A stretch of DNA of 49,697 nucleotides from Rhodoferax sp. OV413 (GTDB lineage Bacteria; Pseudomonadota; Gammaproteobacteria; Burkholderiales; Burkholderiaceae_C). Below, piece after piece: positions 20,012 through 41,899 of this stretch. The number at the start of each line of letters is the position of its first letter. Within the stretch, counting starts at the first letter, position 1. The translations under genes and the position numbers were made by a program. The notes under the pieces were generated by a model. It saw nothing but the letters and a program-made list of their open reading frames with translations, was not told where the DNA came from and made no database searches. The DNA lies in contig CAMAWD010000042.1 of NCBI GenBank assembly GCA_945861785.1, positions 1 to 49,697 on the forward strand. The letters run 5' to 3'.

Positions 20012-20396
20012 AGCGAATGGGACTGACTTTGTCTTCAATGCGTGACGTGGCGTTCGTTCTATCGCCGAGCCTGGTCGCGCAATCCTCAACCACGGGTCGT
20101 GGTGGCAAGAAATATCCACCGCATTGGAGCAATCCTGTGGCAACACGAGCAAGAGCGCGCGAAGAGGACGACGAACTATGCCGACCGAGACACGACCTAC
20201 AAGCTGGCCGCGTAGCAAAGCGCGGGCGAAGCCCCTTCTTGACGACAGGATTGCAAAAATCCGGGGCTACGCTCGCCCGAAAACCGCAACATCGCGCATG
20301 GCGACCGCGAAAATGCACGCCCGAGCCCTTGCGAGCGTGACAATTCCAGAAAACCACCGCGAGCCCGAAATTTTGGGATCGGCAGTTTTTTAATCA
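20012..20396 (+). other. Region without a recognisable gene
   Basis: Several overlapping short open frames run through these 385 bp. One reads NIHRIGAILWQHEQERAKRT and TNYADRDTTYKLAA in the plus strand, and another frame holds a 71-residue basic peptide from ATG 20177. None is recognised. The base composition is coding-like in places, so this may be a decayed gene cut by the IS at 20397. Confidence 0.4.
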
Positions 20397-21833: not shown

Positions 21834-22458
21834 GAAGTCAAGTTTCTGCGGTTAGGTTTGATATTGCATTCTAAATCGTACTAATATAAAATTAGGAAAA
21901 AGTTTTTAAACGACATGGATAGAAGCTACACATGGCCCGACCAGCGCACTACCAAGACGAGGAACTGGCGTGGGCCAAGCTCTTGATCGAAACGGCCACC
22001 ACGGTGCAACAACTCAAGCGCGGCCAAGCGATGCTGCTGCCCGCGTTAACGGGCGCATCAATGGACACCACCGCTACGCTATTGGGCCTGGGGCGCAATC
22101 AGGTGTACGTGCTGCGCCGCCAGTTTCGAACGCCGGGACAAGCGCCACTATTGGGCGATCAGGATCAACGTGGAGGACGAAGGCGGGAGTTGCTGAGCCT
22201 GGAGGAAGAGGCGCGATTTGTGCGGGGCTTCATCGAGCAGGTCAAGCAAGGAGATGCGCCGACCATAGCGCTGATTCACGTTGCGCTGGAGGAGAAGGTG
22301 GGCAAGCGGGTCCCGCGCTCAACAGTCCATCGCATGCTTGGTCGACACGGCTGGCCAAAACTCTCCGCGGACGCATGAGTCCAAGCTTGGAGATATATAG
22401 TAGCTTTTTGAATGCAAACAATTGGATTGGACGGACTTAAAACTCAAGTAACACAGTA
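20397..22458 (-). mobile_element. IS701-like insertion element (putative ends)
   Basis: A perfect 10-bp terminal inverted repeat, TACTGTGTTA at 20397-20406 and its complement at 22449-22458, brackets the transposase and a divergent helix-turn-helix gene. The outer flanks TAATCA (20391-20396) and AAATCA (22459-22464) match at 5 of 6 positions, as expected for an aged target duplication. At about 2.06 kb it is longer than a usual IS701 element. The transposase reading runs through the left repeat into the flank. The ends are proposed from these repeats only. Confidence 0.5.
21932..22378 (+). CDS. Winged helix-turn-helix protein (IS630-type N-terminal domain)
   Basis: A 148-residue protein with a helix-turn-helix (ATLLGLGRNQVYVLRRQFRT) and a second winged-helix unit (APTIALIHVALEEK, then STVHRMLGRHGWPKL). 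This is the bipartite DNA-binding part of IS630/Tc1-type transposases; the catalytic DDE part is absent and the frame stops soon after GWPKLSADA. It is divergent from the IS701-like transposase and inside the same inverted-repeat boundaries. It is either a truncated IS630 transposase caught in the element or a regulator carried by it. Confidence 0.65.
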   Translation: MARPAHYQDEELAWAKLLIETATTVQQLKRGQAMLLPALTGASMDTTATLLGLGRNQVYVLRRQFRTPGQAPLLGDQDQRGGRRRELLSLEEEARFVRGFIEQVKQGDAPTIALIHVALEEKVGKRVPRSTVHRMLGRHGWPKLSADA

Positions 22459-22998: not shown

Positions 22999-23319
22999 TC
23001 AGGCTGCTACCGAGTGTGCTGACAGGCTGACCTGCAGCTGCTCGCGCACTGCTCGAAAAATGGCCGCTAGGTTGTCCATGCTGGGGTTGCCAGTGGGCGA
23101 CAACATACGGTGCAAACTCTTGCTCGGCTTTGCGGTCAGCGTTGCGAGTTGCTCGAAACCGATGGTGGCGTTCACCAAGTCACGCAAAATCAGTCGGGCT
23201 GTTTCCGGCTCACCATTGAGAAATAGTGTCGCAGCTTCATCAAGCAGCGCCTGCGCAAATGACGCGTCGCTCTGCACACGCTGGATGACGGTTTCTTTAA
23301 AATTTCTGGTCAATGCCAT
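22999..23319 (-). CDS. higA: HigA-type antitoxin (helix-turn-helix)
   Basis: A 106-residue antitoxin with a Xre-like helix-turn-helix in its second half (GFEQLATLTAKPSKSLHRML, then GNPSMDNLAAIFRAV), the form found in HigA-like addiction-module antidotes. It starts 4 bp after the stop of the RelE-type toxin gene; toxin-first order is the HigBA hallmark. It would bind and neutralise the toxin and repress the pair through the palindrome upstream of higB. Both frames are intact. Confidence 0.85.
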   Translation of the reverse strand: MALTRNFKETVIQRVQSDASFAQALLDEAATLFLNGEPETARLILRDLVNATIGFEQLATLTAKPSKSLHRMLSPTGNPSMDNLAAIFRAVREQLQVSLSAHSVAA

Positions 23320-23323
23320 TCTG

Positions 23324-23680
23324 TTACCCCTTGTGTTTGCTGCCAGGTTTGGCAGTTATCGCCTTTTTGCGAGCCTTGTACTCAACCAACAATGCCCGGG
23401 CTTTGTCGATGTCCCGTTGCTGACCGCGTTTGGTTCCTCCACCGAACAGGACGATGAGCGTGTCGCCATCTTTGGCGAGGTAAATCCGGTAGCCCGGTCC
23501 CCAGTCAATCACATATTCACCCATGCCGTCAAACCACTTGATGCTGGAGGTATTACCCAAAGTCATTCGAAGTTTGGCAACGGTCACCTTGGCCGCAGCC
23601 TGCGCTGACAGGCTGTCAAACCATTGCTTGTACGGGTTGGATGCGTCCTCACGGATGTACTCTTCGACTTTGATTGCCAT
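23324..23680 (-). CDS. higB: HigB/RelE-type mRNA interferase toxin
   Basis: A 118-residue basic toxin of the Gp49/HigB-like branch of the RelE/ParE superfamily. Signature stretches are SNPYKQWFDSLS, WGPGYRIYLAKDGDTLIVLFGGG and TKRGQQRDIDKARALL. Such toxins cleave mRNA at the ribosome when the antitoxin is lost. It is first in a two-gene operon with higA. A 16-bp palindrome lies 9 bp upstream of its start. This is the only toxin-antitoxin pair in the window with both partners intact, so it may stabilise the surrounding accessory DNA. Confidence 0.88.
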   Translation of the reverse strand: MAIKVEEYIREDASNPYKQWFDSLSAQAAAKVTVAKLRMTLGNTSSIKWFDGMGEYVIDWGPGYRIYLAKDGDTLIVLFGGGTKRGQQRDIDKARALLVEYKARKKAITAKPGSKHKG

Positions 23681-24218: not shown

Positions 24219-25574
24219 TTATTGCCCCGAACCTAGCAACACGCCTGCCGCGATCTTGCGGATGTCTTGCTCCGATACGCGCCCGCCGCTCTTGGTCATC
24301 GCGTCCCAGCATTGCTCGAGGATGGGCATCACGTGCTCGCGTTGCACGGTGATTCCCAGTTGTTCCAACTTGTTCCACATGCCCAGCGGTCCTGTGACTA
24401 CGCCGACCTCGATGCGACGGCTCAGGCCCACCGCTTCGGGGACGAATGATCCGTGGATGAGCGGGTCGAACAAGGCCTCCAATTCGAATTCATCGGGCTG
24501 CGCTGAATCTAACGTTGCCGATCCGATCACGGGCTCATTCCATGGTGTGGGCACCCCGGTCATCCGGGCCGCTACGTCGGATGTGTGCGCAAGTTTGGAC
24601 AGGTCTACGCCGGTGTCCACCCCGTACAGTGCTTGCAGCGCCACTGCCATTCCGGTCAGGCTGGCCTGGCATCCTGCCGGGCCGACCTCATAGCCGTTCA
24701 CCGACACTTCTATGACTTCTGCGCCGGCGCGTGCACCGGCCACCGAGCACGCAGCGCCCAGGCCGTAGAGATTGTGGGCATGAATGCAGATCTGAAGCCC
24801 GGGTGCCGCTTCCTTGATGGAATGCACGATGCGGCTGAAGGCCTCGGGTGCGGTGCCAGCGGTGGAGTCGGCTAGCATGATCTCAAACGCGCCAGCGTCC
24901 CGACTGGCCCGGGCATAGCGTTTGACGAAGTCTTCGTTGGCAAGCGCCAGCAGGTTCAGGCCCATGCTGACTTTGAGCCCCTGTTGCACAGCCTCTCTGA
25001 TGAGGCGGCAAGGTCGGTCGATGAATTCCTGCTCTGAGGCGGGAAATTTCAGGTCGTGCCAGTCTTGACCTTTCCACACCCTGTGGTACACCGCACCGGC
25101 AAACAATGGGATGGCTCCGCCCAGGTATGCCGCGGTCCAGGATTGCAAAATGTCGTAGCCTGCCTCAATGGCTTGGTCCATGTCTTCGCGCTTGACCAGG
25201 CCACCATAGACCATCTGGCAATGGGGATTGATGCTCTTGGCCAAGCGAACTTCTGCGCGCATCTCCTGCATGGTGTGTCCGCGCCTGAAGGCGGAGGTTT
25301 GCACTTCTGGAACGCCGGCTTCAACAAGGGCTCTGAGCAAGTCGAGCCGTTGCTCCGCAGTGTTGGCCACGCCGGGCATCTGTTCCATGGTTCGCAGCGT
25401 GATGTCGCGAAGCTTTACCCGCGTCTGAAAATGTCCCTCGTCGCGACCGATGCTGCGATTGAGCGGATTGACCATCCATTTCCCGGGTTCGTGGGATCCG
25501 GCCGGACGCCGCAGGTCTAACTCATTGCGGAAGTGTGCCAGCTCTTGTGCGGTGAAAATGTCTTCGGGTTGCAT
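24219..25574 (-). CDS. DRE-TIM (HMG-CoA lyase-like) protein, module A
   Basis: A 451-residue TIM-barrel protein of the HMG-CoA lyase/isopropylmalate synthase superfamily. The HxHN metal motif is intact (IHAHNLYGLG, His265, His267) and SVNGYEVGPAG follows near residue 291. In the first strand, where the family has Arg-Asp-Gly-x-Gln, this protein has Arg61-Thr62-Met63-Glu64-Gln65; the metal-ligand Asp is therefore missing. An upstream RD (56-57) is out of register. It aligns without gaps over the first 300 residues with the paralogue at 33964-35313. It is last in an operon with an acyl-CoA synthetase (12 bp upstream). It is probably a lyase or acyl transferase acting on a CoA ester; the reaction is unknown. 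Confidence 0.8.
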   Translation of the reverse strand: MQPEDIFTAQELAHFRNELDLRRPAGSHEPGKWMVNPLNRSIGRDEGHFQTRVKLRDITLRTMEQMPGVANTAEQRLDLLRALVEAGVPEVQTSAFRRGHTMQEMRAEVRLAKSINPHCQMVYGGLVKREDMDQAIEAGYDILQSWTAAYLGGAIPLFAGAVYHRVWKGQDWHDLKFPASEQEFIDRPCRLIREAVQQGLKVSMGLNLLALANEDFVKRYARASRDAGAFEIMLADSTAGTAPEAFSRIVHSIKEAAPGLQICIHAHNLYGLGAACSVAGARAGAEVIEVSVNGYEVGPAGCQASLTGMAVALQALYGVDTGVDLSKLAHTSDVAARMTGVPTPWNEPVIGSATLDSAQPDEFELEALFDPLIHGSFVPEAVGLSRRIEVGVVTGPLGMWNKLEQLGITVQREHVMPILEQCWDAMTKSGGRVSEQDIRKIAAGVLLGSGQ

Positions 25575-25586
25575 GAAAGATGCGTT

Positions 25587-27692
25587 TCAGGAAGATGAGG
25601 AAGCGGCCGCGCCAGGGTCGGCACGCGTCACCAGAGCATCGAGTGCCACGAAGCGGTCAGGCGCAGCGACGGCGAGGGGGTTGAATTCAACTTCAAGCAA
25701 CTCGGGCCGGGCGGCAACGCGTTGGGTCAATTCAAAAATGCAGTCGGCAAGGCGCTTGAGATCTACCGCCGGGCGGCCCCGCCATCCCTTGAGGCGAGTG
25801 GTCATGCGCAGAGTTAGCAAGGCGGCCTCAATCTCGTGCGCTGTGACCGGCAGCAGGCGCAGGCAGGTGTCTGGCTGGTCTTGCGATTCGACGCCACCCC
25901 TGCCCAGCAAGAGCAGTGCACCGAACACCGGGTCTTGCCGGATTCCAACAATCAGTTCGTGCTCGTGCTGCACCATCTCCTGCACCAGGATGCCATCGAG
26001 CGCGAGGTCGAGTTCGATGGCCCGTTTGAACAAGTCATCAACGGCGGCCCGGGTTGAGATCGCATCGCCCAAGCTCAGCACGATGCCGCCATGCTCAGTC
26101 TTGTGTGGCAATTGAGCACTTTGTATCTTGGCCACCAGCGGAAACTTCAAACCACGCAAGGCTTCATCCAGTTGGCTGGCGTGGGTGATGAGCCGGCCGA
26201 TGGGCCAAGTCAGGCCTTGCACTTGGCCCAGGGCATCGCGGCCCCTGACTTCGGACAAGAACGAACCAGCGCAAGACAGTCTGGGCCGGCCGGGTGCAAG
26301 CCCATTGCCCTGCACCGGCTGGCGCGCGCTGATGGTGTTCCACGCTGCGAGTGCGCCAATCGCCTGCGGAATGTCTTCATAGAAGGCCAGCCGGGCTTTG
26401 CGCAGCGCGGCGATCACCTGTGGCTGGGCCGCTACCCAGATCACCAGCACCGGCTTTCCCGTGGGTAGAAGGTGTTCAATGATCGCGTCAATGATGGACT
26501 GGTAGCCCTGCGAGATCAGCCCAAAATATAGAACAAATGAGTCGAAAGCCGGGTCGTGGCACACCGCTTTGGCCGCATCCACGAAGATGGCCGTATTGAT
26601 GACGCACGAGCCCGTCAGGTCCAGCGGATTTCCTACTTTGCCAAAACTGGGCAGGGCCGCTGTCAACGCAGGGAGGGTCTGCTCAGAGATGGGTGGCAGT
26701 TCGATGCCCTTGGGCTCAGCCGCATCGCTGATCAACGCCGCGCCGCCGCCCGATACTGACAGCACCAGCGCACGTCCGGCAGACGGCAGGGGTTCGCTGG
26801 AGATCAGTTTTGCTGCATCGATCATCTCGCGCAACGAGTCAAAGGCCAGCACGCCCGTCTGCTCGAACAACGCCGACCACACTTGGTCTTGCGCCGCCAT
26901 GGCGCCGGTGTGGGAGAGCGCAGCGGCGGCGCCCAGCGTCGTCCTGCCTGCGCGCAAGGCCAACACCGGCTTGTTGGCGCGCTGTGCGCTTTCCAGTGCG
27001 CGGCGCAACGCGGGCCCATCGCGCACGCCTTCAATGTAGATGCAGATCGCGCGCGTCGCCGCATCGCCGACAAGATAAGTCACGAAATCGTCTATACCCA
27101 GATCGGCCTCGTTGCCTGTGGGCAGCCAGGTGCTGAAGCCGAAATTGTCCTGCACCAAAATCTGCAACCAGTACGCTGCCATGGCGCCACTTTGGCCGAC
27201 AAACGCCACCGGACCGGTTCGCAGTTCGGGCATGTTGATGCCGGCCATGGTCGCGCACATGCGCGCATGGGTATTGATGACGCCATTGCAGTTCGGGCCC
27301 AGGATGGCCACATCGTGCTTGCGGGCCAATGCAAGCAGTGCCTCCTGGCGGTGTCGTCCTTGGGCGTCCAGCTCCGCGAAGCCGCTGGCGTAGATGGCAA
27401 ATGCGCGTGAACCGGCTTGAATGCCCTGAGCCACTGCATCCACCACTTCAGATGCTGGCGTCATCACGATCGTCAGGTCAATGGGCTGACCGATGTCGGT
27501 GAGCGACGGATAGGCCTTGAGTCCCATCACTTGCTGATGCCGCGGATTGACCGGGTAGATGGGACCCTCATAGCCATATTGGAGTAGGTTGGCGAGGGGC
27601 CGGCCTGATTGCTTTGAACTGTCGCTGGATGCACCGATGATGGCGATGGAGCGGGGCTGCAGCAACGCCCTGATGCGATCTGTCTTGGGCAT
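25587..27692 (-). CDS. ADP-forming type acyl-CoA synthetase (acetate-CoA ligase family), module A
   Basis: A 701-residue fused enzyme. The N-terminal CoA-binding domain has RSIAIIGASSD. The ligase domain has LGPNCNGVIN, FVGQSGAM and the phosphorylated histidine His261 in LSHTGAMA. A C-terminal ATP-grasp domain (about 480-701) has PLVAKIQSAQLPHKTEHGG and ILVQEMV. Such enzymes make an acyl-CoA from a free acid and ATP, giving ADP and phosphate. It sits between an acyl-CoA dehydrogenase (12 bp) and the DRE-TIM gene (12 bp), so it likely activates the acid that the cluster degrades. Its paralogue in module B is at 31805-33967. Confidence 0.88.
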   Translation of the reverse strand: MPKTDRIRALLQPRSIAIIGASSDSSKQSGRPLANLLQYGYEGPIYPVNPRHQQVMGLKAYPSLTDIGQPIDLTIVMTPASEVVDAVAQGIQAGSRAFAIYASGFAELDAQGRHRQEALLALARKHDVAILGPNCNGVINTHARMCATMAGINMPELRTGPVAFVGQSGAMAAYWLQILVQDNFGFSTWLPTGNEADLGIDDFVTYLVGDAATRAICIYIEGVRDGPALRRALESAQRANKPVLALRAGRTTLGAAAALSHTGAMAAQDQVWSALFEQTGVLAFDSLREMIDAAKLISSEPLPSAGRALVLSVSGGGAALISDAAEPKGIELPPISEQTLPALTAALPSFGKVGNPLDLTGSCVINTAIFVDAAKAVCHDPAFDSFVLYFGLISQGYQSIIDAIIEHLLPTGKPVLVIWVAAQPQVIAALRKARLAFYEDIPQAIGALAAWNTISARQPVQGNGLAPGRPRLSCAGSFLSEVRGRDALGQVQGLTWPIGRLITHASQLDEALRGLKFPLVAKIQSAQLPHKTEHGGIVLSLGDAISTRAAVDDLFKRAIELDLALDGILVQEMVQHEHELIVGIRQDPVFGALLLLGRGGVESQDQPDTCLRLLPVTAHEIEAALLTLRMTTRLKGWRGRPAVDLKRLADCIFELTQRVAARPELLEVEFNPLAVAAPDRFVALDALVTRADPGAAASSSS

Positions 27693-27704
27693 GAATCCGC
27701 AATG

Positions 27705-28868
27705 TCAGTAGGATTTGGGCATGCCCAGTTCCCGCTCGGCGATGTAGCACAGTGCCAGACTTTGGGCCACCGGCGCCAGCACAGGGATCATGATTTCGCG
27801 CAGCAGCCGCTCCACATGGAACTCCTTGGCAAAGCCAAAGCCGCCGTGTGTGATCATGGCTTGCCGGCAAGCCTTCTGCGCCGCTTCGGCGGCGAGGAAT
27901 TTGGCCGCGTTCGCTTCAACGCCGCAGGGCAGGCCCGCGTCATACATGGCGGCGGCTTTGTACACCATGAGATTGGCGGCCTCCAGTTCGGCCCAGCACT
28001 GTGCCAGCGGCAGCTGCACCGCCTGGTTCTGTCCGATGGGTCTGCCGAACACGACACGCTCGGTGGCATAGACCGAGGCCTTCTTCACCACGAAGCGGCC
28101 CACGCCCACAGCCATCGCTGCCGCGGTGACCCGCTCCGGGTTGAGTCCGTCCAGGAGGTAGCGAAAGCCTTTGCCTTCCTCGCCGATGCGGTCCTGCACG
28201 GGAACGGGAAGGTCGTTTATCAGGACTTGGCACGATGCATTGGCCTGGTAGCCGTGCTTCTTGATGGGGCGCACGTCCACATAGCGTCTGTCGATGGCGG
28301 TGTAGAACAGCGTCAGCCCGTCAATGGGGCGCGGGGTCTCCTGCACAGGTCGTGTGCGGGCCAGCACCAGCATCCGGTCGGCAATCATTGCGCCGGTGGT
28401 CCAGACCTTCTCGCCATTCATGATGTAGTGATCGCCCGAGCGCAGCGCGCGCGTGGACAGGCGCGTGGTGTCAAGCCCGGTATTGGGCTCCGTCAGTGCC
28501 ATGCAAGGCCGTTCAATGCCCTGGGCAAGCGGCGGCAGAAACCGGCGCTTTTGCTCAGGTGTGCCGTACACCACAATGGGATGCGGTGTAAACAGATAGT
28601 GATGAATCGAGCCGCCGCCGGTCCAGCCGGAGCCGGATTCGGCGATCGCCTGGATCATCGTGACCGCTGCGGTGAAACTAGAGCCTGAGCCTCCGAACTC
28701 CTGCGGAAAGTAAATGCCCGTCCACCCGCCCTCACGCAGGGCCGCGAAGAACTCCGTGGGAAAGCGCTCGTCGTTGTCGCACTCAAGCCAGTAGTTGAGC
28801 CCGAATGAGTCGCACAACTTGAAAATGGCTTCGCGGATCTCGGGGTGCGGGTCGGTGTCGAACTGCAT
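27705..28868 (-). CDS. Acyl-CoA dehydrogenase, module A
   Basis: A 387-residue FAD-dependent acyl-CoA dehydrogenase. Recognised segments are GWTGIYFPQEFGGSG, MALTEPNTGLDTTRL, NGEKVWTTGAMIADRML and, near the C-terminus, ITHGGFGFAKEFHVERLLRE. The usual arginine-rich FAD contact VFGRPIGQNQAVQ is present. It introduces a 2,3 double bond into an acyl-CoA and passes electrons to ETF. The gene is 21 bp downstream of the TctC-type binding protein gene and 12 bp upstream of the synthetase. No enoyl-CoA hydratase is in the operon, so the next step must use another gene or the DRE-TIM protein. Confidence 0.9.
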   Translation of the reverse strand: MQFDTDPHPEIREAIFKLCDSFGLNYWLECDNDERFPTEFFAALREGGWTGIYFPQEFGGSGSSFTAAVTMIQAIAESGSGWTGGGSIHHYLFTPHPIVVYGTPEQKRRFLPPLAQGIERPCMALTEPNTGLDTTRLSTRALRSGDHYIMNGEKVWTTGAMIADRMLVLARTRPVQETPRPIDGLTLFYTAIDRRYVDVRPIKKHGYQANASCQVLINDLPVPVQDRIGEEGKGFRYLLDGLNPERVTAAAMAVGVGRFVVKKASVYATERVVFGRPIGQNQAVQLPLAQCWAELEAANLMVYKAAAMYDAGLPCGVEANAAKFLAAEAAQKACRQAMITHGGFGFAKEFHVERLLREIMIPVLAPVAQSLALCYIAERELGMPKSY

Positions 28869-28889
28869 TTTTTTCCCGATGCCACAGCC

Positions 28890-29861
28890 TCAATTGGTCT
28901 TGATGCCCGTGGCTTGAACCATCTGGGTCCAGCGCTTGACCTCTGCGTCAAGCTTCACGCGGAACTCATCCGGTGTGTCTCCGACCGCGCTGGCCCCTCG
29001 CTTGCTCAGCCACTCCCTGGTTTCCGGCTCAGCCATCACCGCCCGCACGTCACTGCTCAAGCGGGCTTGCACGTCCTTGGGTGTGGCAGCCGGGACAAAC
29101 AGGCCCAACCAGAGGGATGTGTCGTAGCCGGGCACCGTGTCGCCGATGGCGGGTAGCTCTGGCCAGAATTCGCTGGGCGCGGCCGTGGTCACGGCCAGTG
29201 CCCGTGCCTTGCCCGCCGCAACAAGCGTCCTGGCGGTGGGCAGCGGATCGATGATCATCTGGATCTCTCCGGTGGCCAATCCCTGGTAAGAGGGCGCACC
29301 ACCTTTGTAGGGGATATGGACGATGTTCACACCGGCCATCGATTTGAAAAGTTCCCACGAGAGGTGAATCGAACTGTTGATGCCGGGCGAGCCGTGATTG
29401 AGTTTCCCAGGGTTGGCTTTGGCATAGGCAATCAACTCGGCCATTGATTTCACCGGCAAGTCCGGACGCACCAGCAGCACGTTCGCGCCGATGGTGACCA
29501 TGCTCACAGGCGCCAGGCTCTTGCGCATGTCGTAGGGAAGGTCATCGCGCATGGCCACCTCGGTGGCGATGGCCGGGCTGTGCAGAAGCATCGTGTAGCC
29601 ATCGGCAGGCGAAGCGATCACGGCCTGAGTGCCGACCGCGCCACCGGCACCGGCCCGATTTTCAACGATCACGGGCTGCTTGAGCCGCAAGGACAGACGC
29701 TGCCCTAGAAACCGCGCGCTGATGTCGCCATTCGATCCTGCCGGGTAGGGCATGACGATCCGAACCGGTCTCTCCGGAAACTGCGCCTGCGCGGGTGCCG
29801 TTGCACACAGAAGCAGCAGGCTTGCACCAAAGCCGGCCACGATGTGGCGAAAGATGTTCAT
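28890..29861 (-). CDS. TctC/Bug-type extracytoplasmic solute-binding protein
   Basis: A 323-residue binding protein with a signal peptide (MNIFRHIVAGFGASLLLLCA, ending APAQAQ). The family start is FPERPVRIVMPYPAGSNGD, followed by NRAGAGGAVGTQAV. These Bug proteins bind carboxylates in the periplasm, sometimes feeding tripartite tricarboxylate transporters and sometimes acting as sensors. No TctA/TctB membrane genes are here. It is the first gene of minus-strand module A, so it probably captures the substrate of the pathway. The upstream region (29862-30118) is shared with the divergent IclR gene. Confidence 0.92.
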   Translation of the reverse strand: MNIFRHIVAGFGASLLLLCATAPAQAQFPERPVRIVMPYPAGSNGDISARFLGQRLSLRLKQPVIVENRAGAGGAVGTQAVIASPADGYTMLLHSPAIATEVAMRDDLPYDMRKSLAPVSMVTIGANVLLVRPDLPVKSMAELIAYAKANPGKLNHGSPGINSSIHLSWELFKSMAGVNIVHIPYKGGAPSYQGLATGEIQMIIDPLPTARTLVAAGKARALAVTTAAPSEFWPELPAIGDTVPGYDTSLWLGLFVPAATPKDVQARLSSDVRAVMAEPETREWLSKRGASAVGDTPDEFRVKLDAEVKRWTQMVQATGIKTN

Positions 29862-30118
29862 TGAAGGTCTCCTGGATGACTGGGAAGAATCGGTTTATTG
29901 AATGAAATCTCTGGTGGTCTGCGTGCCCAACTCCGCTCGCGTTGGATTCTGCAGATGGATCATTATGGGTGTCGGATATATGAGAGTCAACGGGGTATAC
30001 GTGAGAAAGCCGTGGATCTGTTCCGCCGTTTCACTCAGCAAAATTGCTCTACTGGTGCGGCATACAATGAGTCCCAGTCATTGAACCCAGGTTGAACCGG
30101 CTCTGCCCATGCCGCTCC

Positions 30119-30946
30119 ATGCCGTCCATGCCCGTCGCTCCTGATTCGCTTCCACCGTCGTCGGTACGAAAGGCCTGCCAGATTCTGCGGGCAGTTTGTG
30201 GGCATGACGCTTGTGCGCTGGGCGTAGTCGCCGTGCACGCCGGCGTGGATAAGGCCACTGCATTGCGTCTGCTCGGTGTCTTGGCCCAAGAAGGGTTTGT
30301 GGTGCGCAACGAAAGCACCAAGCGCTACGCCATCGGACCGGAGCTACAGGCACTGGGCGCCATGGCCCTTGCGCGCTTTGATCCCTCCGCCATTGTTCGA
30401 CCGAGCTTGCTTCGCTTGGCCGATGAACTCGAAGACACGGTGGTGCTGCTGGTGCCTCGCGGGCATGAATCGCTTTGCCTTGCGACGCAGGAGGGGCGCT
30501 TTCCAATCCGCGCCAACTACCTGCCCGTGGGCGGGCGACGTCTGTTAGGCCTGGGGGCGGGCAGCCTGGCATTGCTGGCCTGGTTGCCCGCACGCGAAGC
30601 GCAGGCGGTGCTGGAATCTCTGGCGGTGGCACTGCGCGGCCATCCACGCGTGACCCCGGCCCTGGTGGAGAGCATGGCGGCTCAATCTCGCAGCCAGGGT
30701 TATGCGCTGTCGCTGGACATCGTGATTGATCGTGTCGGCGGTGTCGGCGTGCCCATACTGGGCCACGATGGCCGGCCCTTGGGCGCACTGAGCGTTTCGG
30801 CGCTGAGCGATCGCATCACTTCACGCCTGGACCAAATCGTCGCTGCGCTGCAGCGCGAGGCTATCGTGTGCCAACACATCTGGCGCAAGCAACTCCAACC
30901 CGGCACCCCCTTGGCGCCAGGGCAAGAGCCTTCGCAGCGACGCTGA
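30119..30946 (+). CDS. IclR-family transcriptional regulator 1
   Basis: A 275-residue regulator. The N-terminal winged helix-turn-helix spans about 15-75 (VRKACQILRAVCG, then VDKATALRLLGVLAQEGFV). The effector domain has the family pattern with LGLGAGSLALLAWL and SLDIVIDRVGGVGVPILG. The frame opens at a TTG (30092); ATG 30119 or 30128 is the likely start. It is divergent from module A (257 bp of shared upstream DNA), the classic place for a local repressor or activator. The second IclR gene follows after 21 bp, so they are one transcript. Confidence 0.9.
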   Translation: MPSMPVAPDSLPPSSVRKACQILRAVCGHDACALGVVAVHAGVDKATALRLLGVLAQEGFVVRNESTKRYAIGPELQALGAMALARFDPSAIVRPSLLRLADELEDTVVLLVPRGHESLCLATQEGRFPIRANYLPVGGRRLLGLGAGSLALLAWLPAREAQAVLESLAVALRGHPRVTPALVESMAAQSRSQGYALSLDIVIDRVGGVGVPILGHDGRPLGALSVSALSDRITSRLDQIVAALQREAIVCQHIWRKQLQPGTPLAPGQEPSQRR

Positions 30947-30967
30947 TTCATTCTCAGTATCAAATCC

Positions 30968-31789
30968 ATGCTATCAAGCAAGAAGGCGGCCGCGCAAGCT
31001 ACCTTGGTCGACTACCACCGGCCCGCCTGGCTCAGTCGCATCAATCGCAAGGCGGTTGGCGCGGTCATTCACGCCCTGCGAATTCTCGAGTACCTGAGCA
31101 CCTTGCCCTCGCCCGTGCGTGTCACTCACGTTGCGAAGGAGCTGGGTATGCACTTGAGCACATGCTTCAACATTCTCAACACGCTCGTACTGCAAGGGTA
31201 TGTGCAGTTCTCACCCAGGGGGAAAGGCTATTCCATCAGTTCGCAGGTGGCGAATCTCGCCCGGGGGGCGGTCGATCCAAAGGGTGCGCTGGCTGCGGCA
31301 CAGCCCGAAATGCGCCGAATCGCGCAGACCCATGACTTGATCATCACGGTCTGGAAGCGCTCGGCGATTGACCGCATGACACTGGTCGCGGCCTCGGAAA
31401 GCGATGCCGCTGTGCGTTTGCATCTGACTGTGGGCCACACCATCCGGCTGCTGCTGGGCTCGGTGGGCCGTGTGATGGCAACCCGGGTAGAGATGGACCG
31501 CGATGAGTTGCGCCAGTCTTTCCAGAATGTGCGCTGGAACAAGCCGATGGATTTCGACAGCTTCATGCTCGAAGCACAAACGGCACGTGCGCAAGGCTAC
31601 GCCGTGGACGATGCGGTCGCGAACAAGGGGCTGCTCTCCATTGCGAGTCCGATCATCACGGACAGCGCGTACTGCGATACCGTCTGTTGCGCGTCAATGT
31701 TTGTGGGCACCTATCCGGACGCTACCATCAAGGTCATCGCGCACGATCTTGTCGGGTTGTGCCGCTTGATCGCCCACATCGGCAACTGA
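30968..31789 (+). CDS. IclR-family transcriptional regulator 2
   Basis: A 273-residue regulator with a winged helix-turn-helix (VIHALRILEYLS, VTHVAKELGMHLSTCFNIL) and an IclR effector domain (HTIRLLLGSVGRVMATR, GYAVDDAVANKGLLSIASP). It differs clearly from its upstream neighbour, so this is not a recent duplication. Its stop is 15 bp from the stop of the convergent acyl-CoA synthetase of module B. Two regulators for two modules suggests each controls one, but that is inference. Confidence 0.9.
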   Translation: MLSSKKAAAQATLVDYHRPAWLSRINRKAVGAVIHALRILEYLSTLPSPVRVTHVAKELGMHLSTCFNILNTLVLQGYVQFSPRGKGYSISSQVANLARGAVDPKGALAAAQPEMRRIAQTHDLIITVWKRSAIDRMTLVAASESDAAVRLHLTVGHTIRLLLGSVGRVMATRVEMDRDELRQSFQNVRWNKPMDFDSFMLEAQTARAQGYAVDDAVANKGLLSIASPIITDSAYCDTVCCASMFVGTYPDATIKVIAHDLVGLCRLIAHIGN

Positions 31790-31804
31790 GCCCCGCCTGT
31801 CACA

Positions 31805-33967
31805 TCATCCAGGTGCCTGGGCGCGCAGCGTGACAACTGCATCCACGGCGCACGAGCCGCTGGGCCGCAGCATGAAGGGATTGATCTCCACCTGCACCAA
31901 TTGCGCACCTGCGCGATGGGGGGGCCGAGTGATTGCCTTGGACAGTTTCACCATGGCATCGACCAGCTCAGACTGATTTGCCTTCAAGCCATTGCGGTGA
32001 TGGGACATGGAGCGCCAACTTCTCAGGCGCAGCAGCATGGCCAGGGCCTCCTGGGGCATGATCGGAGCAGGGGCCACGACCAGATCCTGGACGCGTTCGG
32101 TCAGAGTGCCGCCCGCGCCCACGGTGATGAACGGACCGAGTAAGGGATCGACAAATGCAGACAGCAAGACTTCGCTGACAACGTCCTCGACCATCGCCTC
32201 CACCAAGACCCGCGTAGCGCAGCCATGGCGCACGCAAATCGCGGCCAGCTCGCGCCAGGCGGCCTGGGCGACCGCTTCATTGCCCAGGCCGATCCTCACC
32301 GCACCGATCTCGGTCTTGTGGGTGACACCCGCGATGACTGCCTTCATGGCAACCGGGCTGGGTAGTTCGCACAAGGCCGCTGCCAGTTCGCTCTCTTGTG
32401 CGACAAGGCGGCGGGCCACGACCGGGATGCCGATGTCCAGCTCGACCCAGTCAAGAGCGTCATCCTCCGCAAGTAGGTGCCCGGACTCTTCCATCTTCTG
32501 AACCGAGGACTGCGCCATTGGCATGGAGCTCTCGCGCGGTTCATGCGACGGGTCGACGTCCAGCACGCCCATCGCTCTGACCAGTGCAACGCCGTCGTCG
32601 AACACGGGTACACCGGCCTTGGCCATTGCGGCACGGATGTCAGCGTCAACCATGCCGACGAACAGAATGCGCTTGTCTGGGTAGCGCGTGGCCATGGCGA
32701 TCAGGGCGGCGCTGATTTTTTCGGCGCGGTCTCGCCATAACATGGACGCCCCGTGAATCATGACCATGCAATCAACTTCGGGCTCGTCCAACACGGCCGA
32801 AAAGAACGCCGGTAACATGGCCGGATTCTGGTTGGTCGCGCCGGTCACATCGATCGGGTTATTGGGAGAGCACGCGGGTACCAAGGCGCGCATGCGAACT
32901 CGGCCTGACTCGGAAATCTGCGCCATAGGAACCTGGCTAAGCCAGGCGGCATCAGCCGTCATGGCCCCGCTGCCGCCTGACGAAGTCACGATGGCCAAGC
33001 CCGAGGGCCGGTGCGGCATGCACACGGCCAAGCGCAAGACGTCGATGAGCTCGCGCTGACCATCCACCCGCAGCACCCCCAGCTTGCGAAACAGCGCCTC
33101 GTACAACACGTCACCCGTGACCATGGCCGCAGTATGTGACTGCACAGCGCTGGCACCCGCGGGTGTGCGGCCGGGACGAATGGCAACCACGCGCTTGCCA
33201 AGTTCGCGTGCTTGCAGGGCTGCCGCGCTGAAAGCGTGGACATCCTTGAGGCTTTCGAGATAGAGCGCAATCACCTTGATCGACTCCATGGCACAAGCAA
33301 ACTCGATGCAATCGGCGACGCATAGGTCGGCCTCGTTGCCGGTAGAGACCCAGAAGCTTGCCCCCATGTCCTCAGCGGCAGCGCGTGCCAGCAGATCGGC
33401 CGCCACCGCGCCGCTTTGGCTGATCAGTGCGAGCGGGCCGCCGCGTGGCCATACGATCTCGAATACGCTGGCAGGACTGGCGTAGACGCACTGTGCCACA
33501 TTCACAAAGCCCAGGCAGTTCGGACCCAACACGCGCATGCCCGCTGCGCTGGCCAAGCCGGTAATGCGACTTTGCAGCAACTCGCCTTCCGGCCCGATTT
33601 CACTGAATCCGCCCGACAGCACGGAGACGGTACGCACACCGGCCGCAATGCTGTCCTCCAGCAGCGCCGGCACAGCATCGGCTCGCACCAGGAAAATGGC
33701 GTGATCTATGGAACGGCCGTACTCGGCGGCGCTACGATACCAGGTCAGTCCACCGCTGGTCTGGCCGGCATGGCGGGGGTTGATGGGAACGATCACGCCT
33801 CCAAACCCACCTTTGCGCAGGTTCTCGATGGCACGAGCGCCCATGCTGCCCGATTCCATCGATGCGCCATAGACGGCGATGCATGCGGGTGCAAACACGG
33901 CGCCAAGATCCAGCCGACGCGGCGGCGTACCCGAGGCCTGGGGCATGTCCTTGCTGCCGACGCTCAT
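31805..33967 (-). CDS. ADP-forming type acyl-CoA synthetase, module B
   Basis: A 720-residue paralogue of the module A enzyme with the same order of domains. CoA-binding is at ACIAVYGASMESGS; the ligase domain has LGPNCLGFVN and LISQSGAVAAD, with His278 in QSHTAAMV as the phosphohistidine. The ATP-grasp half has PVAMKAVIAGVTHKTEIGA. The two synthetases diverge substantially, so they may activate different acids. Its start overlaps the stop of the DRE-TIM gene as ATGA, so the two are translationally coupled. It is the last gene of module B. The order of synthetase and DRE-TIM genes is reversed relative to module A. Confidence 0.88.
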   Translation of the reverse strand: MSVGSKDMPQASGTPPRRLDLGAVFAPACIAVYGASMESGSMGARAIENLRKGGFGGVIVPINPRHAGQTSGGLTWYRSAAEYGRSIDHAIFLVRADAVPALLEDSIAAGVRTVSVLSGGFSEIGPEGELLQSRITGLASAAGMRVLGPNCLGFVNVAQCVYASPASVFEIVWPRGGPLALISQSGAVAADLLARAAAEDMGASFWVSTGNEADLCVADCIEFACAMESIKVIALYLESLKDVHAFSAAALQARELGKRVVAIRPGRTPAGASAVQSHTAAMVTGDVLYEALFRKLGVLRVDGQRELIDVLRLAVCMPHRPSGLAIVTSSGGSGAMTADAAWLSQVPMAQISESGRVRMRALVPACSPNNPIDVTGATNQNPAMLPAFFSAVLDEPEVDCMVMIHGASMLWRDRAEKISAALIAMATRYPDKRILFVGMVDADIRAAMAKAGVPVFDDGVALVRAMGVLDVDPSHEPRESSMPMAQSSVQKMEESGHLLAEDDALDWVELDIGIPVVARRLVAQESELAAALCELPSPVAMKAVIAGVTHKTEIGAVRIGLGNEAVAQAAWRELAAICVRHGCATRVLVEAMVEDVVSEVLLSAFVDPLLGPFITVGAGGTLTERVQDLVVAPAPIMPQEALAMLLRLRSWRSMSHHRNGLKANQSELVDAMVKLSKAITRPPHRAGAQLVQVEINPFMLRPSGSCAVDAVVTLRAQAPG

Positions 33968-35313
33968 TCCCGATCCTTGACGGCCCGCGCCAAGCCGCGA
34001 ATTTCCTCATCTGCCAGCGGCCTTCGCACTTGCAGCATCAGATCGAGACAAGCTTTCAAAATCGGCTCGACCAGAGGTTTGTCGATCTGCAGGCCAAGTT
34101 CATTGAGCTTTTCCTGCATGCCCAACGGACCCGTCGTGATGCCGATGCCGCTGCTTCGCACCGCGCCTGACAATGCGGCAGTCACCGCACTGTGAATCAG
34201 AGGGTCGAAGCGGGCCTCTTGTTCATATTCGTCTGCGCCGGCAGTCTCCAGAATGGCAGAGCCAAGAATCGGCTCGTTCCACGGAATCGCGATGCCAGTG
34301 AGCTTTGCACCTCGTTGCGCAATGCTGTACATGCGACTCAAGTCAATATCAGTGCTCACCCCATACAGTGCCTCCAGCGCGGCGGCTGTCGAAGCCAGAC
34401 TCGCTTGCACACCTGCCGGGCCGACTTCATACCCATTGACAGAGACCTCGATGATCTGGGCCCCAGCGCGCGCTCCGGCCAATGATGTCGCCACCGCCAG
34501 GCCGAACAGGTTGTGCGTGTGTACGCCTATAGGAATGTCCGGGGCGGCCGCGCGGGCGACCTGGACCAGTCGCGCGATGGCCTCTGGCCCGCAGCCGCCC
34601 GATGAATCTGCCAGGATGACCTCGCAAGCACCGTCGCCGGCCATGGCCTTGCAGAACTCCGCTATGTAATCCTCATTGGTGTAAGTGATGAGGTTGACCA
34701 GCGCTGAAACTTGCAGGCCGCATTCACGGCCTGCGGCAACCAGGCGGCGTGCACGGCCGATGTGCTCGGTGGCGTCGGCGGGGAAGCGCAGGTCGCGCCA
34801 ATCTCGTCCCTGCCAGACACGGTGGTAGACCGCGCCCGCAGATGCGGGCATGGCCTTGCCCAGATATGTGGCGTTCCAGATTTGAACCAGACCGTAGCCG
34901 GACTCCGCCGCCAGCTGCATTTCCTGCGCACGGACTGGGTTGCCGTACATCAGGCGGCTGGCTGGGTCAATGCGGCGCGCGGCCTCGATCTCTGCGCGCA
35001 TGGTCTGCACGCTGTGGCCGCGCCTGAAGCACGAGGTCGCCACGTGCAATACGCCGGCGCTGATCAACTCACATAGGTATTCAAGCCGCTCCTCGGGCGA
35101 GTTGACCACGCCCGGCATCTGCTCCATGGTGCGCATACTGATGTCGCGCAAATCCACCCGCCCAGGGAAGGCACCGGGGCGGGTCCCCCACTGGCGATTG
35201 AGCGGGCTGACCATCCACTTGCCTTGGGCGTAGCAATCGGCGGGACGATAGGACTGCAATGTGTCACGCATGGTGCGGATCTCGTCCGCAGTAAAAATTT
35301 CTTCAGGCTGCAT
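33964..35313 (-). CDS. DRE-TIM (HMG-CoA lyase-like) protein, module B
   Basis: A 449-residue paralogue of the module A protein, starting with the same MQPE.IFTA. The motif region is again Arg61-Thr62-Met63-Glu64-Gln65 in place of Arg-Asp-Gly-x-Gln, while His265 and His267 of HTHN and the SVNGYEVGPAG loop are kept. Conservation of the substituted motif in two diverged copies argues that it is functional and not decay. It overlaps the upstream acyl-CoA dehydrogenase by 11 bp and the downstream synthetase by 4 bp, so expression is tightly linked. Confidence 0.8.
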   Translation of the reverse strand: MQPEEIFTADEIRTMRDTLQSYRPADCYAQGKWMVSPLNRQWGTRPGAFPGRVDLRDISMRTMEQMPGVVNSPEERLEYLCELISAGVLHVATSCFRRGHSVQTMRAEIEAARRIDPASRLMYGNPVRAQEMQLAAESGYGLVQIWNATYLGKAMPASAGAVYHRVWQGRDWRDLRFPADATEHIGRARRLVAAGRECGLQVSALVNLITYTNEDYIAEFCKAMAGDGACEVILADSSGGCGPEAIARLVQVARAAAPDIPIGVHTHNLFGLAVATSLAGARAGAQIIEVSVNGYEVGPAGVQASLASTAAALEALYGVSTDIDLSRMYSIAQRGAKLTGIAIPWNEPILGSAILETAGADEYEQEARFDPLIHSAVTAALSGAVRSSGIGITTGPLGMQEKLNELGLQIDKPLVEPILKACLDLMLQVRRPLADEEIRGLARAVKDRE

Positions 35314-36259
35314 GAGTGATCTCCTGTTCTTGCAAAGCCGCTTCGTTAAGCCGCATCAGCATTTTTCGAACAGCCATGATGTGACGCGCATGGAAGTGAA
35401 GACCTGCGTCCCATGTGAAACCAATGCCGCCGTGAATCTGAATCGACTGAGCCACCACCCTTTGTGCCACGGCGGTGCAGTGCAAGGCCAGGGCGATCCA
35501 GTCGTTCTCTATCAATGCACCGACCAGTCCGCTGCGGATCAGCTCGACGTCGCGATACATGTCGGCCATCATGTGGCGCACTGCCTGAAAGCTCCCGATC
35601 TGAGCGCCATAGGCCTTGCGTTCACGTGAATATTCGACGGACCTCTCAAGACACCGCGCGGCGCACCCCACGGTGGTGGCCGAATGCATCAGGGCTACTT
35701 CACGCACACCGGGGTTCGCCAGTGCCGAAACGCTCGCGTGGCCCGACACCCGCACGAAGGCAAGAGGGAAGGTGCTCGCGTAGTCGTCATGGTCGGCATA
35801 GGCGCCGAGATCGGCTGGCTGACCGATGGCCTCCGGTGTCGGTATCAGTGCGCAAGCGTTAGCAGCAAACGGCACCACCATGCGATGGCCCGAAGCCGGC
35901 AGCGCCAGACTGGCGGCCTGCAACGGCTCCCATCGCCCGGCCGCGGGCGGATCACTGCGGTGAAGCCAGCGCAAGGCCCCAACCGTCGCCACCAGCGGCA
36001 AGGCTAACAATTCCCTCCCGCAAAGTTCAGACAGCGCCAGTAGGTCGCAGCCAGAGGTCGGATTTTCACCGTCAATGGTGATGCCAAAGCGATGCCAGCC
36101 CGCGCTTGTCAGTTGGCGCCATTGGTCCGTGTCGCCAACGGGTGCGTGCGGCACCGACTTGTTGTCTTTGCGCCAACCCTGAATCATCTTGCCGAGCTCG
36201 TGCAAGGAGGACTGACCATCGGCCGAAACTGTCAGTGGAATGCTCACATCATTGCTCAT
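35303..36259 (-). CDS. Acyl-CoA dehydrogenase, short partner subunit, module B
   Basis: A 318-residue, short acyl-CoA dehydrogenase-like protein. The C-terminal half is family-typical (SRERKAYGAQIGSFQAVRHM, IQIHGGIGFTWDAGLHFHAR) while the N-terminal domain is degenerate and lacks the usual FAD-loop residues. ATG 36259 overlaps the stop of the neighbouring dehydrogenase as ATGA. This long-plus-short overlapping pair is like the alpha2-beta2 acyl-CoA dehydrogenases known from actinobacterial sterol catabolism (FadE28/FadE29 type), where each subunit supplies half of the active site. It is probably a heterotetramer subunit. Confidence 0.85.
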   Translation of the reverse strand: MSNDVSIPLTVSADGQSSLHELGKMIQGWRKDNKSVPHAPVGDTDQWRQLTSAGWHRFGITIDGENPTSGCDLLALSELCGRELLALPLVATVGALRWLHRSDPPAAGRWEPLQAASLALPASGHRMVVPFAANACALIPTPEAIGQPADLGAYADHDDYASTFPLAFVRVSGHASVSALANPGVREVALMHSATTVGCAARCLERSVEYSRERKAYGAQIGSFQAVRHMMADMYRDVELIRSGLVGALIENDWIALALHCTAVAQRVVAQSIQIHGGIGFTWDAGLHFHARHIMAVRKMLMRLNEAALQEQEITHAA

Positions 36260-37404
36260 CGCGGCAACTCCAGTACGCGGTCTGCGATCAGGTTGCGCTG
36301 AATCTGCGCGGTGCCGCCATGAATGGTGACGGAGCGGGTATCGAGATATCGAAAGCGCCAGTAGTCCTCGTGCGACTCGCAACCTGTGGCGAAGCCGCAT
36401 TCGGTGATGGCTTGCCAGAGCTCTGACCATTCAAGCCGCAGCACCTGGGTAGAGTGGAGCCAGTCGGCATCCTGCGCCATCAGTTCGGTGGTGCGCATCA
36501 TGTGCCAGCGCAGCGCAGCCGCGCGCGCCTGAAGATCGATCAACTGTTGCCGATATCTCCATTGGGTAGCGGCGACGCAGTGGGCCAACTGATCCAGGGT
36601 TTCGCCGATCAGCACGTACCAGCGAACCGCATCGAAGATGCGTCGACGCTGCCGAAAACCCGACAAACCGATGATTTCCCAGCCCTTGTTTTCAACCCCG
36701 AGCAGTTGATCGTCGGCCGCGAAGGCGCCGTCAAAGAACACCTGGTTGAATTCCGCTCCCTCGCTGATCTGGTTGATCGGCTGCACCACGATGCCCGGCT
36801 GGTGCATGTCCACCATCATCACGCTGAGATTCCTGCGGCGTGGACCGTCGGAGGTCTTCACCGCCAGGAAAATCCAGTCAGCGAACTGCGCCCGGCTGGT
36901 CCAGATTTTCTGGCCATGAATACGCCATCCACCCTCAACCTTTTCCGCGCGAGTTGCCACGGCCGCCAGATCAGACCCCGCGTTCGGTTCCGACAAGCCC
37001 TCGCACCACAGATGTTCAGCCGAGATGATGCGCGGAAGAAACCGCGCGCGCTGCGCCGCTGTGCCAAATTCCATCAGGGCTGGGCCGGTCAAGTCCAGAC
37101 CGATGGCGTTGGCGGTGTTGGGCGCATGGGCTCGTGTCGCTTCCTGATAAAAAAGATACTCCTCGATGGGCCCTTCACCGCGTCCGCCGTATTCTCGCGA
37201 CCAGACAATGCCCGCATAGCCGCCTACAGCCATCAAGCGGTCCCATTCACGCCTTCGTCGGATTTCCTCCTCAAAATCCGGGCGCGGCCCCGATTGCCAT
37301 TGCCGAGGCAACGTGGCATCTATCCACTCGCGAGCTGCTTCGCGGTACTTCTTTGCCCGGGGGTCGGCAAAGCTCTTGATCGGCTGCTGTACTGATTCAG
37401 TCAT
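36256..37404 (-). CDS. Acyl-CoA dehydrogenase, long partner subunit, module B
   Basis: A 382-residue acyl-CoA dehydrogenase with GYAGIVWSREYGGRG, LSEPNAGSDLAAVATR, HGQKIWTSRAQFADWIFLAV and a C-terminal IHGGTAQIQRNLIADRVLELPR-type FAD-contact segment. The catalytic Glu of medium-chain enzymes (YEGT) is replaced by IHGGT, as in heteromeric enzymes. ATG 37404 is preferred over a TTG at 37428. It is the first gene of module B, and the short partner overlaps it by 4 bp. The upstream region of about 340 bp carries an IS91-end copy, so the promoter may be close to the gene. Confidence 0.87.
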   Translation of the reverse strand: MTESVQQPIKSFADPRAKKYREAAREWIDATLPRQWQSGPRPDFEEEIRRRREWDRLMAVGGYAGIVWSREYGGRGEGPIEEYLFYQEATRAHAPNTANAIGLDLTGPALMEFGTAAQRARFLPRIISAEHLWCEGLSEPNAGSDLAAVATRAEKVEGGWRIHGQKIWTSRAQFADWIFLAVKTSDGPRRRNLSVMMVDMHQPGIVVQPINQISEGAEFNQVFFDGAFAADDQLLGVENKGWEIIGLSGFRQRRRIFDAVRWYVLIGETLDQLAHCVAATQWRYRQQLIDLQARAAALRWHMMRTTELMAQDADWLHSTQVLRLEWSELWQAITECGFATGCESHEDYWRFRYLDTRSVTIHGGTAQIQRNLIADRVLELPR

Positions 37405-37746
37405 ATGAGTTTGGACTCCATGGGGCAATACTAAGGAGTCTGAGATGAGAATTCTTCTCTATGGAAAACAAATCGTGGTTTCCGGCTCTTTGGGGTAAGG
37501 GTCCGCGCAAAAATTAGCTCACATTTTCGGCCCATGTGGAAACGAGTGTGTAGTTCCACATTGGCAGAACCTTATGCTGGCGCATGTTGACGCGGTTCAT
37601 CTGCGCCTGTCATACCTTGATGCCAGTTGGGTAGCGGGAATAGGATTTTCAAATGCCATAGGACGTCCCAAGAATGGGCCTGAAAAAATAGGCCGCAACC
37701 CGCATGCATGCTGGGTTAGGGCCCAGTCAAAGGCGAACAATTCGGG
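37405..37746. other. Intergenic region with an IS91-end copy
   Basis: No gene in 342 bp between module B and the GntR gene. The left part should hold the promoter of module B. The right part holds the 51-bp repeat copy (37636-37686), which marks the left border of the dioxygenase unit. Confidence 0.6.
37636..37686 (+). repeat. 51-bp IS91-end-like repeat, copy A
   Basis: Identical at 44 of 51 positions, without gaps and in the same orientation, to 42988-43038. The most conserved parts are GCCATAGGACG and GGGCCTGAAAA. Copy B lies just beyond the 3' end of an IS91-type transposase remnant, so this looks like the terminal sequence of the same element family. It lies 60 bp beyond the GntR gene stop. 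Confidence 0.75.
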
Positions 37747-40595: not shown

Positions 40596-40881
40596 GCTTC
40601 AGCGTGCAGCGGAATCGCCGCTTACGGCTCCTGCCTTGGTTGGTGAACGATCAAACGTTGGTTCGAGTGGGATGGCAGATACGCACCGGAGGTAACCAAT
40701 GGGGGATGGGTACGCACATCCGTTTCCCATGTCTGGTGCTTGGTCTGGCTGCGCGTGCACAGCGTTCGGCAGTCATTGCGAATGTGTCCGCATGGCTTGG
40801 GGGCAGTGTAGCCGGCTAAGTTTTCAATATGACTCTTTCATTTACAACACTTTGCCGGTAATACGGCGCACGGAGACCATC

Positions 40882-41883: not shown

Positions 41884-41899
41884 TGAGCCGCGCAGTCGC

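Follow-up and report, generated by a model that had tools for sequence, protein, structure and literature searches.

The stretch of DNA considered here, which comprises 49,697 nucleotides of contig CAMAWD010000042.1 from Rhodoferax sp. OV413 (assembly GCA_945861785.1) and is called the window below, carries two gene modules, A and B, on its minus strand, each of which includes one gene for a protein of the DRE-TIM superfamily. The letters DRE stand for an Asp, an Arg and the Glu of strand 2, the latter being E72 of 3-hydroxy-3-methylglutaryl-coenzyme A (HMG-CoA) lyase. A sequence-only reading of the window had reported that in both proteins the Asp, a metal ligand, is replaced by Thr. Both open reading frames (ORFs) were found where this reading had placed them, and an Arg61-Thr62 pair, encoded by CGA ACC and CGC ACC in the two genes, was present in each, being part of the common stretch LRDI[TS][LM]RTMEQMPGV (Arg61-Thr62-Met63-Glu64-Gln65 within). 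The two proteins, named A and B after their modules, are 50% identical in an alignment that is nearly free of gaps.

Fold and active-site columns of the window proteins

The TIM barrel of HMGL-like fold, which is the first hallmark of the superfamily, was indicated for the window proteins by three approaches in agreement. PF00682 was matched with 100 and 89.8 bits at a gathering score of 29, an AlphaFold2 model based on 21 sequences of the clade described below reached a mean predicted local distance difference test score (pLDDT) of 84.2 and a predicted template modelling score (pTM) of 0.87, and Foldseek placed homocitrate, methylthioalkylmalate and isopropylmalate synthases on top, followed by HMG-CoA lyase from rank 24 (whole-chain root-mean-square deviation, rmsd, of 4.0 A on 2cw6_C). 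The likeness to HMG-CoA lyase and isopropylmalate synthase proposed earlier needs correction in that the nearest solved relatives are synthases of the homocitrate and isopropylmalate type and not HMG-CoA lyase. The NCBIfam model of HMG-CoA lyase gave 41.9 and 32.6 bits, below its cut-off of 246, and the best-matching family models, far under their cut-offs throughout, bear the names of isopropylmalate and homocitrate synthases.

In phmmer alignments with solved structures, the stretch LRTMEQMPGV of protein A pairs without gaps with LREGEQTPGV of the homocitrate synthase 6ktq and with LRDGEQSPGA of 6e1j and 3rmj, which puts Thr62 at the position of the metal-ligand Asp as had been claimed. Protein B was aligned in the identical register, whereby the stretch alone contributes just 1.0-4.8 bits, and the clade profile search agrees with this register. 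Two objections raised by the sequence-only reading itself, namely that Asp57 could occupy the metal site or that Thr is common here in canonical enzymes, found no support in the alignments. Asp57 was rejected as a shifted or substitute ligand because its column holds a separate acid that is present in canonical enzymes too (D in 12 and E in 2 of 14 rows), and at the equivalent of position 62 all 47 control ORFs that could be read by profile alignment, taken from the own genome and 11 related ones, carry Asp (44) or Glu (3) and nothing else. These ORFs lie in 44 of 46 loci, a subset of the matches found; some represent the same protein in overlapping loci, and five score 4.3 bits or less, so that their reading relies on an RD motif that can be seen in the sequence. 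RD is likewise present in the two unread loci (L035 and L088). The own genome accounts for 13 PF00682 matches, which, minus the two window copies and with locus L039 counted as part of the protein of L037, correspond to ten proteins; the position is Asp in nine of them and Glu in the tenth. Three HMG-CoA-lyase-like proteins (L033, L089 and L091) have Glu for the Asp ligand, and their strand-2 Glu is replaced by Ala (L033, L091) or Gln (L089).

According to PMC11532901, the metal of methylthioalkylmalate synthase (MAMS) is bound by Asp90 together with His288 and His290, H388 with its Tyr partner Y399 in subdomain I is the proposed general base, and an Arg of the Arg61 type stabilises the enolate in the C-C chemistry of the superfamily; PMC6941031 gives Asp42, Asn275, His233 and His235 as Mg ligands of human HMG-CoA lyase. 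Active-site columns were compared in an alignment of 34 rows, 20 of them full-length members of the clade and 14 canonical, and MAMS numbers were assigned by counting residues of 6e1j in the phmmer alignment. The Asp/Glu ligand hallmark is absent from all clade rows, as position 62 is without an acid in 20 of 20. Likewise, position 92 (E72 of HMG-CoA lyase) never carries an acid in the clade, in contrast to Glu in 13 of the 14 canonical rows, which agrees with the earlier report of Gln in one window copy and Ala in the other. The column of E227, the catalytic Glu of strand 5 in MAMS, holds N, L, M or S at position 207 in every clade row, the T257 column holds Ser in three and Gly in 17, and the HESGIH motif to which H388 belongs is absent from the clade.

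Retained are D57, R61, D236, H265, H267 and N268. Two further hallmarks hence persist in 20 of 20 rows, namely Arg61 at the end of strand 1 and HxHN, which occurs as HAHN (protein A), HTHN (protein B) or HPHN, so that the claim of conserved histidines was correct. Arg56 and His374, the latter in the Y399 column, are newly invariant, and Glu366 is found in all clade rows. By alignment, the column of the fourth ligand (N275 of HMG-CoA lyase) carries Asn throughout the 16 actinobacterial rows, and the four proteobacterial rows have Gln there. Most canonical proteins have Asn in this column; Met is found in L033 and in L041-L044, which keep the Asp and likely belong to phosphonate clusters.

When set against the Claisen-condensing synthases (6ktq, 3rmj, 6e1j), which are the best match in sequence and fold over barrel and second subdomain, the clade shares Arg61, D57, D236 and HxHN, as well as EQxPG in its proteobacterial branch (Gln65 being Thr or Ala in Actinomycetota), but lacks the metal Asp/Glu, the strand-2 Glu, the Glu of the E227 column and the HESGIH base motif, and differs by Ser or Gly at T257, His374 at Y399 and an N-terminal extension with W-x-V-x-PLN. 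With HMG-CoA lyase (2cw6), the PF00682 domain, HxH and the Arg are common, as is a catabolic acyl-CoA context in the proteobacterial branch; however, the ligand set D42, N275, H233 and H235 is reduced to its two His and a carboxamide, E72 has no counterpart, and the GGCPY loop with the catalytic Cys, present in the own-genome paralogues L029, L030 and L033, is absent from the clade. A third likeness, to 4-hydroxy-2-oxovalerate aldolase of the DmpG type, amounts to a weak profile match and to the vicinity of FAH-family and ACMSD-like genes, a cluster resembling ring cleavage, in L015 and L018, while the scanned genes, which cover part of each locus, include no aldehyde dehydrogenase partner. 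Canonical DmpG-type aldolases are generally known to retain the Asp ligand. Judged by these comparisons, the window proteins are members of the fold superfamily that lack two of its hallmark residues and the distinguishing features of both the condensing enzymes and HMG-CoA lyase.

An Asp-less clade in two phyla

A scan of contigs with a three-sequence alignment returned 19 loci, all of which show the N-terminal W-x-V-x-PLN motif; as this motif was one of the two scan patterns, the loci need not have been selected for residue 62. If proteins A and B and a second copy from Nonomuraea (L098) are added, the set comprises 22 sequences from Pseudomonadota and Actinomycetota, none of which has an acid at position 62: Thr is found in five (proteins A and B, L007, L023 and L022, the latter a fragment from a metagenome-assembled genome, MAG, labelled Candidatus Odyssella), Ser in 15 and Ala in two (L018 and L098). 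The suggestion that Thr62 and Glu64 form an invariant signature had consequently to be given up, since position 62 varies between T, S and A, and Glu64, otherwise retained, is Gly in L021 and Asp in L098. According to the aligned rows, the trait of the clade is the missing carboxylate at position 62 rather than a Thr motif, and its real signature is that acids of the active site were lost in concert, whereas Arg and HxHN were retained. In the Nonomuraea record (L008, L092 and L098), two Asp-less copies, one Arg-Ser and one Arg-Ala, lie about 7 kb apart and are paired like those of the window.

In a tree of 34 proteins, comprising 20 Asp-less and the 14 canonical rows (L022 and L098 left out), the Asp-less rows form one clade with a support of 100/96, which was recovered in 99% of 200 bootstrap replicates and in which the branch of L023 is long. 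Protein A is closer to L007 (54%) than to protein B, whereby this fork is weak (82/50). Eight pairs of genes gave ratios of nonsynonymous to synonymous substitution (dN/dS) of 0.17-0.40, the most distant pairs being near synonymous saturation. The genes are under purifying selection, which argues against decay, and the Asp-less clade is old and represents a whole branch of the DRE-TIM superfamily. The earlier view that a change common to two diverged copies was selected is strengthened by this, as the change is shared by old paralogues and marks the clade throughout. Neutral drift or a sequencing artefact in the two window genes is refuted by the same evidence, that is 22 sequences without the acid, most of them from different assemblies, their single clade and the dN/dS values, and can practically be dismissed.

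The clade was rarely encountered. At 1e-40 the own genome alone matched among 100 related genomes. In the larger searches, whose samples overlap, scoring was limited to the best 4 to 9 candidates of each genome, so that the results are lower bounds. At 1e-60, at least the own and one more genome matched among 399 at the level of the order (the matching locus, L006, shares a contig of 13,204 bases with L023, a betaproteobacterial MAG to whose order the window is thereby assigned), and at least the own genome, as sole match, among 274 at the level of the class. In the class of Nonomuraea, at least one of 296 genomes matched, namely the centre genome itself. A search of 398 genomes returned as second match an Asp-bearing cousin from genome G521 (L027/L045/L047), in whose class 6 of 190 genomes matched at 1e-40, all six proteins bearing the Asp. 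This cousin is the best-scoring Asp-bearing protein for the clade profile in the 190 genomes, and its GKWWVSPYN is close to the N-terminal motif of the clade; unlike the clade, it has LRDGEQTPGV and the strand-2 Glu, and it is placed outside the clade in the tree, where it joins L048 with a support of 85/33 on long branches. A single-sequence scan of genome contigs found no relative, and a plasmid search with an actinobacterial member gave nothing at 1e-40. With protein A, the search of plasmid proteins returned 40 records, all below 60% identity, of which the four that were read (L041-L044) have Asp, and with the DNA of module A only the dehydrogenase matched in plasmids among the best 10 of 136 rows. 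No description of the clade was found in the literature searched, most subscription papers being outside its reach.

Gene context in the window and in other members

The features of the window are listed in Table 1. In the order of transcription, module A consists of the TctC receptor, the acyl-CoA dehydrogenase, the ADP-forming CoA ligase and DRE-TIM protein A, and module B of two acyl-CoA dehydrogenase subunits, DRE-TIM protein B and the ADP-forming CoA ligase, whereby successive genes of module B share 4, 11 and 4 bases, given the inferred start of its second gene at 36259. The modules did not arise as one recent block duplication, because the ligases are 31% and two of the dehydrogenases 26% identical (over 201 aligned columns); duplication of one operon is likewise unsupported when these values are set beside the 50% of the DRE-TIM pair and the unlike gene order. 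No enoyl-CoA hydratase was found among the scanned module genes, the search having been confined to these and not extended to the rest of the genome.

Table 1. Positions of the genes and residues discussed, in window coordinates; codon and motif positions were counted from the start codon.
Feature	Position	Strand	Remarks
Asp-less DRE-TIM (HMGL-like) protein A	24219..25574	-	451 aa; last gene of module A
His374 codon, protein A	24453..24455	-	clade-invariant; Tyr in MAMS and LeuA
HAHN (residues 265-268), protein A	24771..24782	-	retained metal-site motif
Thr62 codon, protein A	25389..25391	-	metal-ligand Asp position
ADP-forming acyl-CoA ligase A	25587..27692	-	701 aa
Acyl-CoA dehydrogenase A	27705..28868	-	387 aa
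TctC/Bug-type solute receptor	28890..29861	-	head of module A
IclR-type regulator 1	30092..30946	+	between modules
IclR-type regulator 2	30968..31789	+	between modules
ADP-forming acyl-CoA ligase B	31805..33967	-	720 aa; 31% identity to ligase A
Asp-less DRE-TIM (HMGL-like) protein B	33964..35313	-	449 aa
HTHN (residues 265-268), protein B	34510..34521	-	
Thr62 codon, protein B	35128..35130	-	
Acyl-CoA dehydrogenase, IpdE2-like small subunit	35303..36259	-	start inferred from 4-base overlap with preceding gene; ORF open to 36430
Acyl-CoA dehydrogenase, large-subunit type	36256..37428	-	first in module B

CoA activation is encoded near the DRE-TIM gene in both window modules and in L007 and L023, two betaproteobacterial MAGs, and in all of these except L023 it is accompanied by an acyl-CoA dehydrogenase. 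L007 has a dehydrogenase pair with a CaiB-type CoA transferase, and L023 two CaiB-type transferases with two TctC receptors. The 16 actinobacterial loci are of another kind. A LigI-like lactonase was found in 14 of them (the closest solved relative of the one tested being 2-pyrone-4,6-dicarboxylate hydrolase, E 1.6e-67), and a short-chain dehydrogenase/reductase (SDR) in 15, of which 14 are at 70% identity or more and that of L021, at 32%, lies 8 kb away. A FAD_binding_4 oxidase of either of two types is encoded in 13, parts of an NMT1-type ATP-binding cassette (ABC) importer in 11, FAH-family proteins in five and an ACMSD-like amidohydrolase in two. These sets look like systems by which organic acids or lactones derived from rings are taken up and degraded.

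Further features were recorded beyond the modules. To the left of the catabolic region, a DDE transposase and a helix-turn-helix ORF (20394-22378) hint at a mobile origin, and a RelE/ParE-type toxin gene (TIGR02683 over cut-off) is followed by a small ORF without family match, a possible antitoxin (22999-23680). To the right of module B, a TauD-type dioxygenase, a second TctC receptor and a zinc-type dehydrogenase occupy 38755-39684 and 40699-42904. Elsewhere in the own genome, contig C1 encodes carboxyltransferase-like PF00682 proteins (L034, L035, L037, L038 and L040, at 0.3 kb, about 66.9-74.7 kb and 114.7-115.5 kb) with VDT[TS][LV]RDG[NQ] and, visible in most, FHTHCN. The one that was scanned came closest to the models of pyruvate carboxylase subunit B, albeit under their cut-offs, and one of the genes adjoins an acyl-CoA dehydrogenase-like ORF.

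Possible chemistry of the Asp-less clade

Considering fold, residues and gene context, the best reading, to which we assign a probability of roughly 0.45, is that the clade comprises active C-C lyases with an altered two-His metal site and a polyanionic substrate. The reaction would be a retro-aldol or retro-Claisen cleavage within a catabolic pathway, whereby a divalent metal may be held by His265, His267 and the Asn/Gln carboxamide, and the vacant coordination place would be taken by a carboxylate or carbonyl of the substrate. Arg61 would stabilise the enolate, and the canonical Glu and His base may have been replaced by the clade-specific His374 and possibly by an acid at position 361 or 366. 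For the window modules the substrate is envisaged as a CoA thioester provided by the ADP-forming ligase and desaturated by the acyl-CoA dehydrogenase, in the related MAGs a CaiB-type transferase could stand in for the ligase, and in Actinomycetota the substrate may be the acid freed by the LigI-like lactonase. The neutralised acids and the new Arg56 would fit a more anionic substrate.

Several observations weigh against such a lyase. Asp361 is conserved in 19 of 20 rows, L023 having Ala, and no acyl-CoA dehydrogenase was matched in the locus of L023, while that of L022, of only 4,360 bases, shows a TctC receptor alone. The contexts differ by branch, a CoA pathway facing a lactonase pathway, which renders one common reaction uncertain. 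The region of the second subdomain is partly ill modelled, with residues 345-357 below a pLDDT of 50, and the whole-chain rmsd is high on the two-domain synthases, reaching 17.7 A on 6ktq. Finally, the simultaneous loss of several catalytic residues also fits a loss of catalysis.

The last point leads to a pseudoenzyme, that is a barrel without catalysis which would act as a scaffold or regulatory partner of CoA ligase and dehydrogenase, or as a metabolite sensor. The clade has indeed lost the metal Asp and the strand-2 Glu together with the Glu of the condensing enzymes and the His-base motif, and the 4-base overlap of the DRE-TIM gene of module B with the ligase gene suggests coupled translation; a scaffold, however, needs neither Arg61, HxHN and D236 nor the carboxamide of the fourth column, all of which are kept in 20 of 20 rows from two phyla, and the conserved partner genes are unlike between the branches, which makes this explanation improbable, albeit one to be reckoned with. 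About equally improbable is a hydratase, isomerase or similar enzyme acting on an enoyl-CoA or unsaturated acid, for which the barrel would have been reused for water addition. The modules would yield an activated and desaturated acid, and their scanned genes comprise ligase, dehydrogenase(s), receptor and DRE-TIM protein with no hydratase among them, but such hydratases may be encoded elsewhere in the genome, and Arg61, the residue that stabilises the enolate in the C-C chemistry of the superfamily, is invariant. Considerably less probable is an ordinary metallolyase with unchanged chemistry, whose metal site would be completed by Asp57 or Glu64. Within the clade Asp57 never varies and Glu64 hardly does, yet the register is ungapped and canonical enzymes have an acid in the Asp57 column beside their metal Asp, Glu64 is canonical in condensing enzymes too and not kept in two members, and the canonical base and relay residues are also lost.

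The proposal of the sequence-only reading that the Asp-less proteins may mark an uncharacterised reaction class remains plausible. A bolder version, which we regard as tentative and rather doubtful, would see in the clade a new functional class of DRE-TIM enzymes that bind their metal without a protein carboxylate, by two His and Asn/Gln, have the site completed by a substrate carboxylate, and serve in undescribed catabolic pathways of Proteobacteria and actinomycetes, where they would cleave C-C bonds of intermediates that are polycarboxylates or acyl-CoA esters. The Asp ligand is regarded as fixed in DRE-TIM chemistry, and a conserved clade without it represents a natural experiment, showing whether this chemistry can also be driven by a two-His site or has given way to a new reaction. 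Because concrete substrate leads are given by the genes linked to the clade, a CoA ligase and a dehydrogenase on the one hand and lactonase, SDR and ABC importer on the other, one purified protein could put this question to the test.

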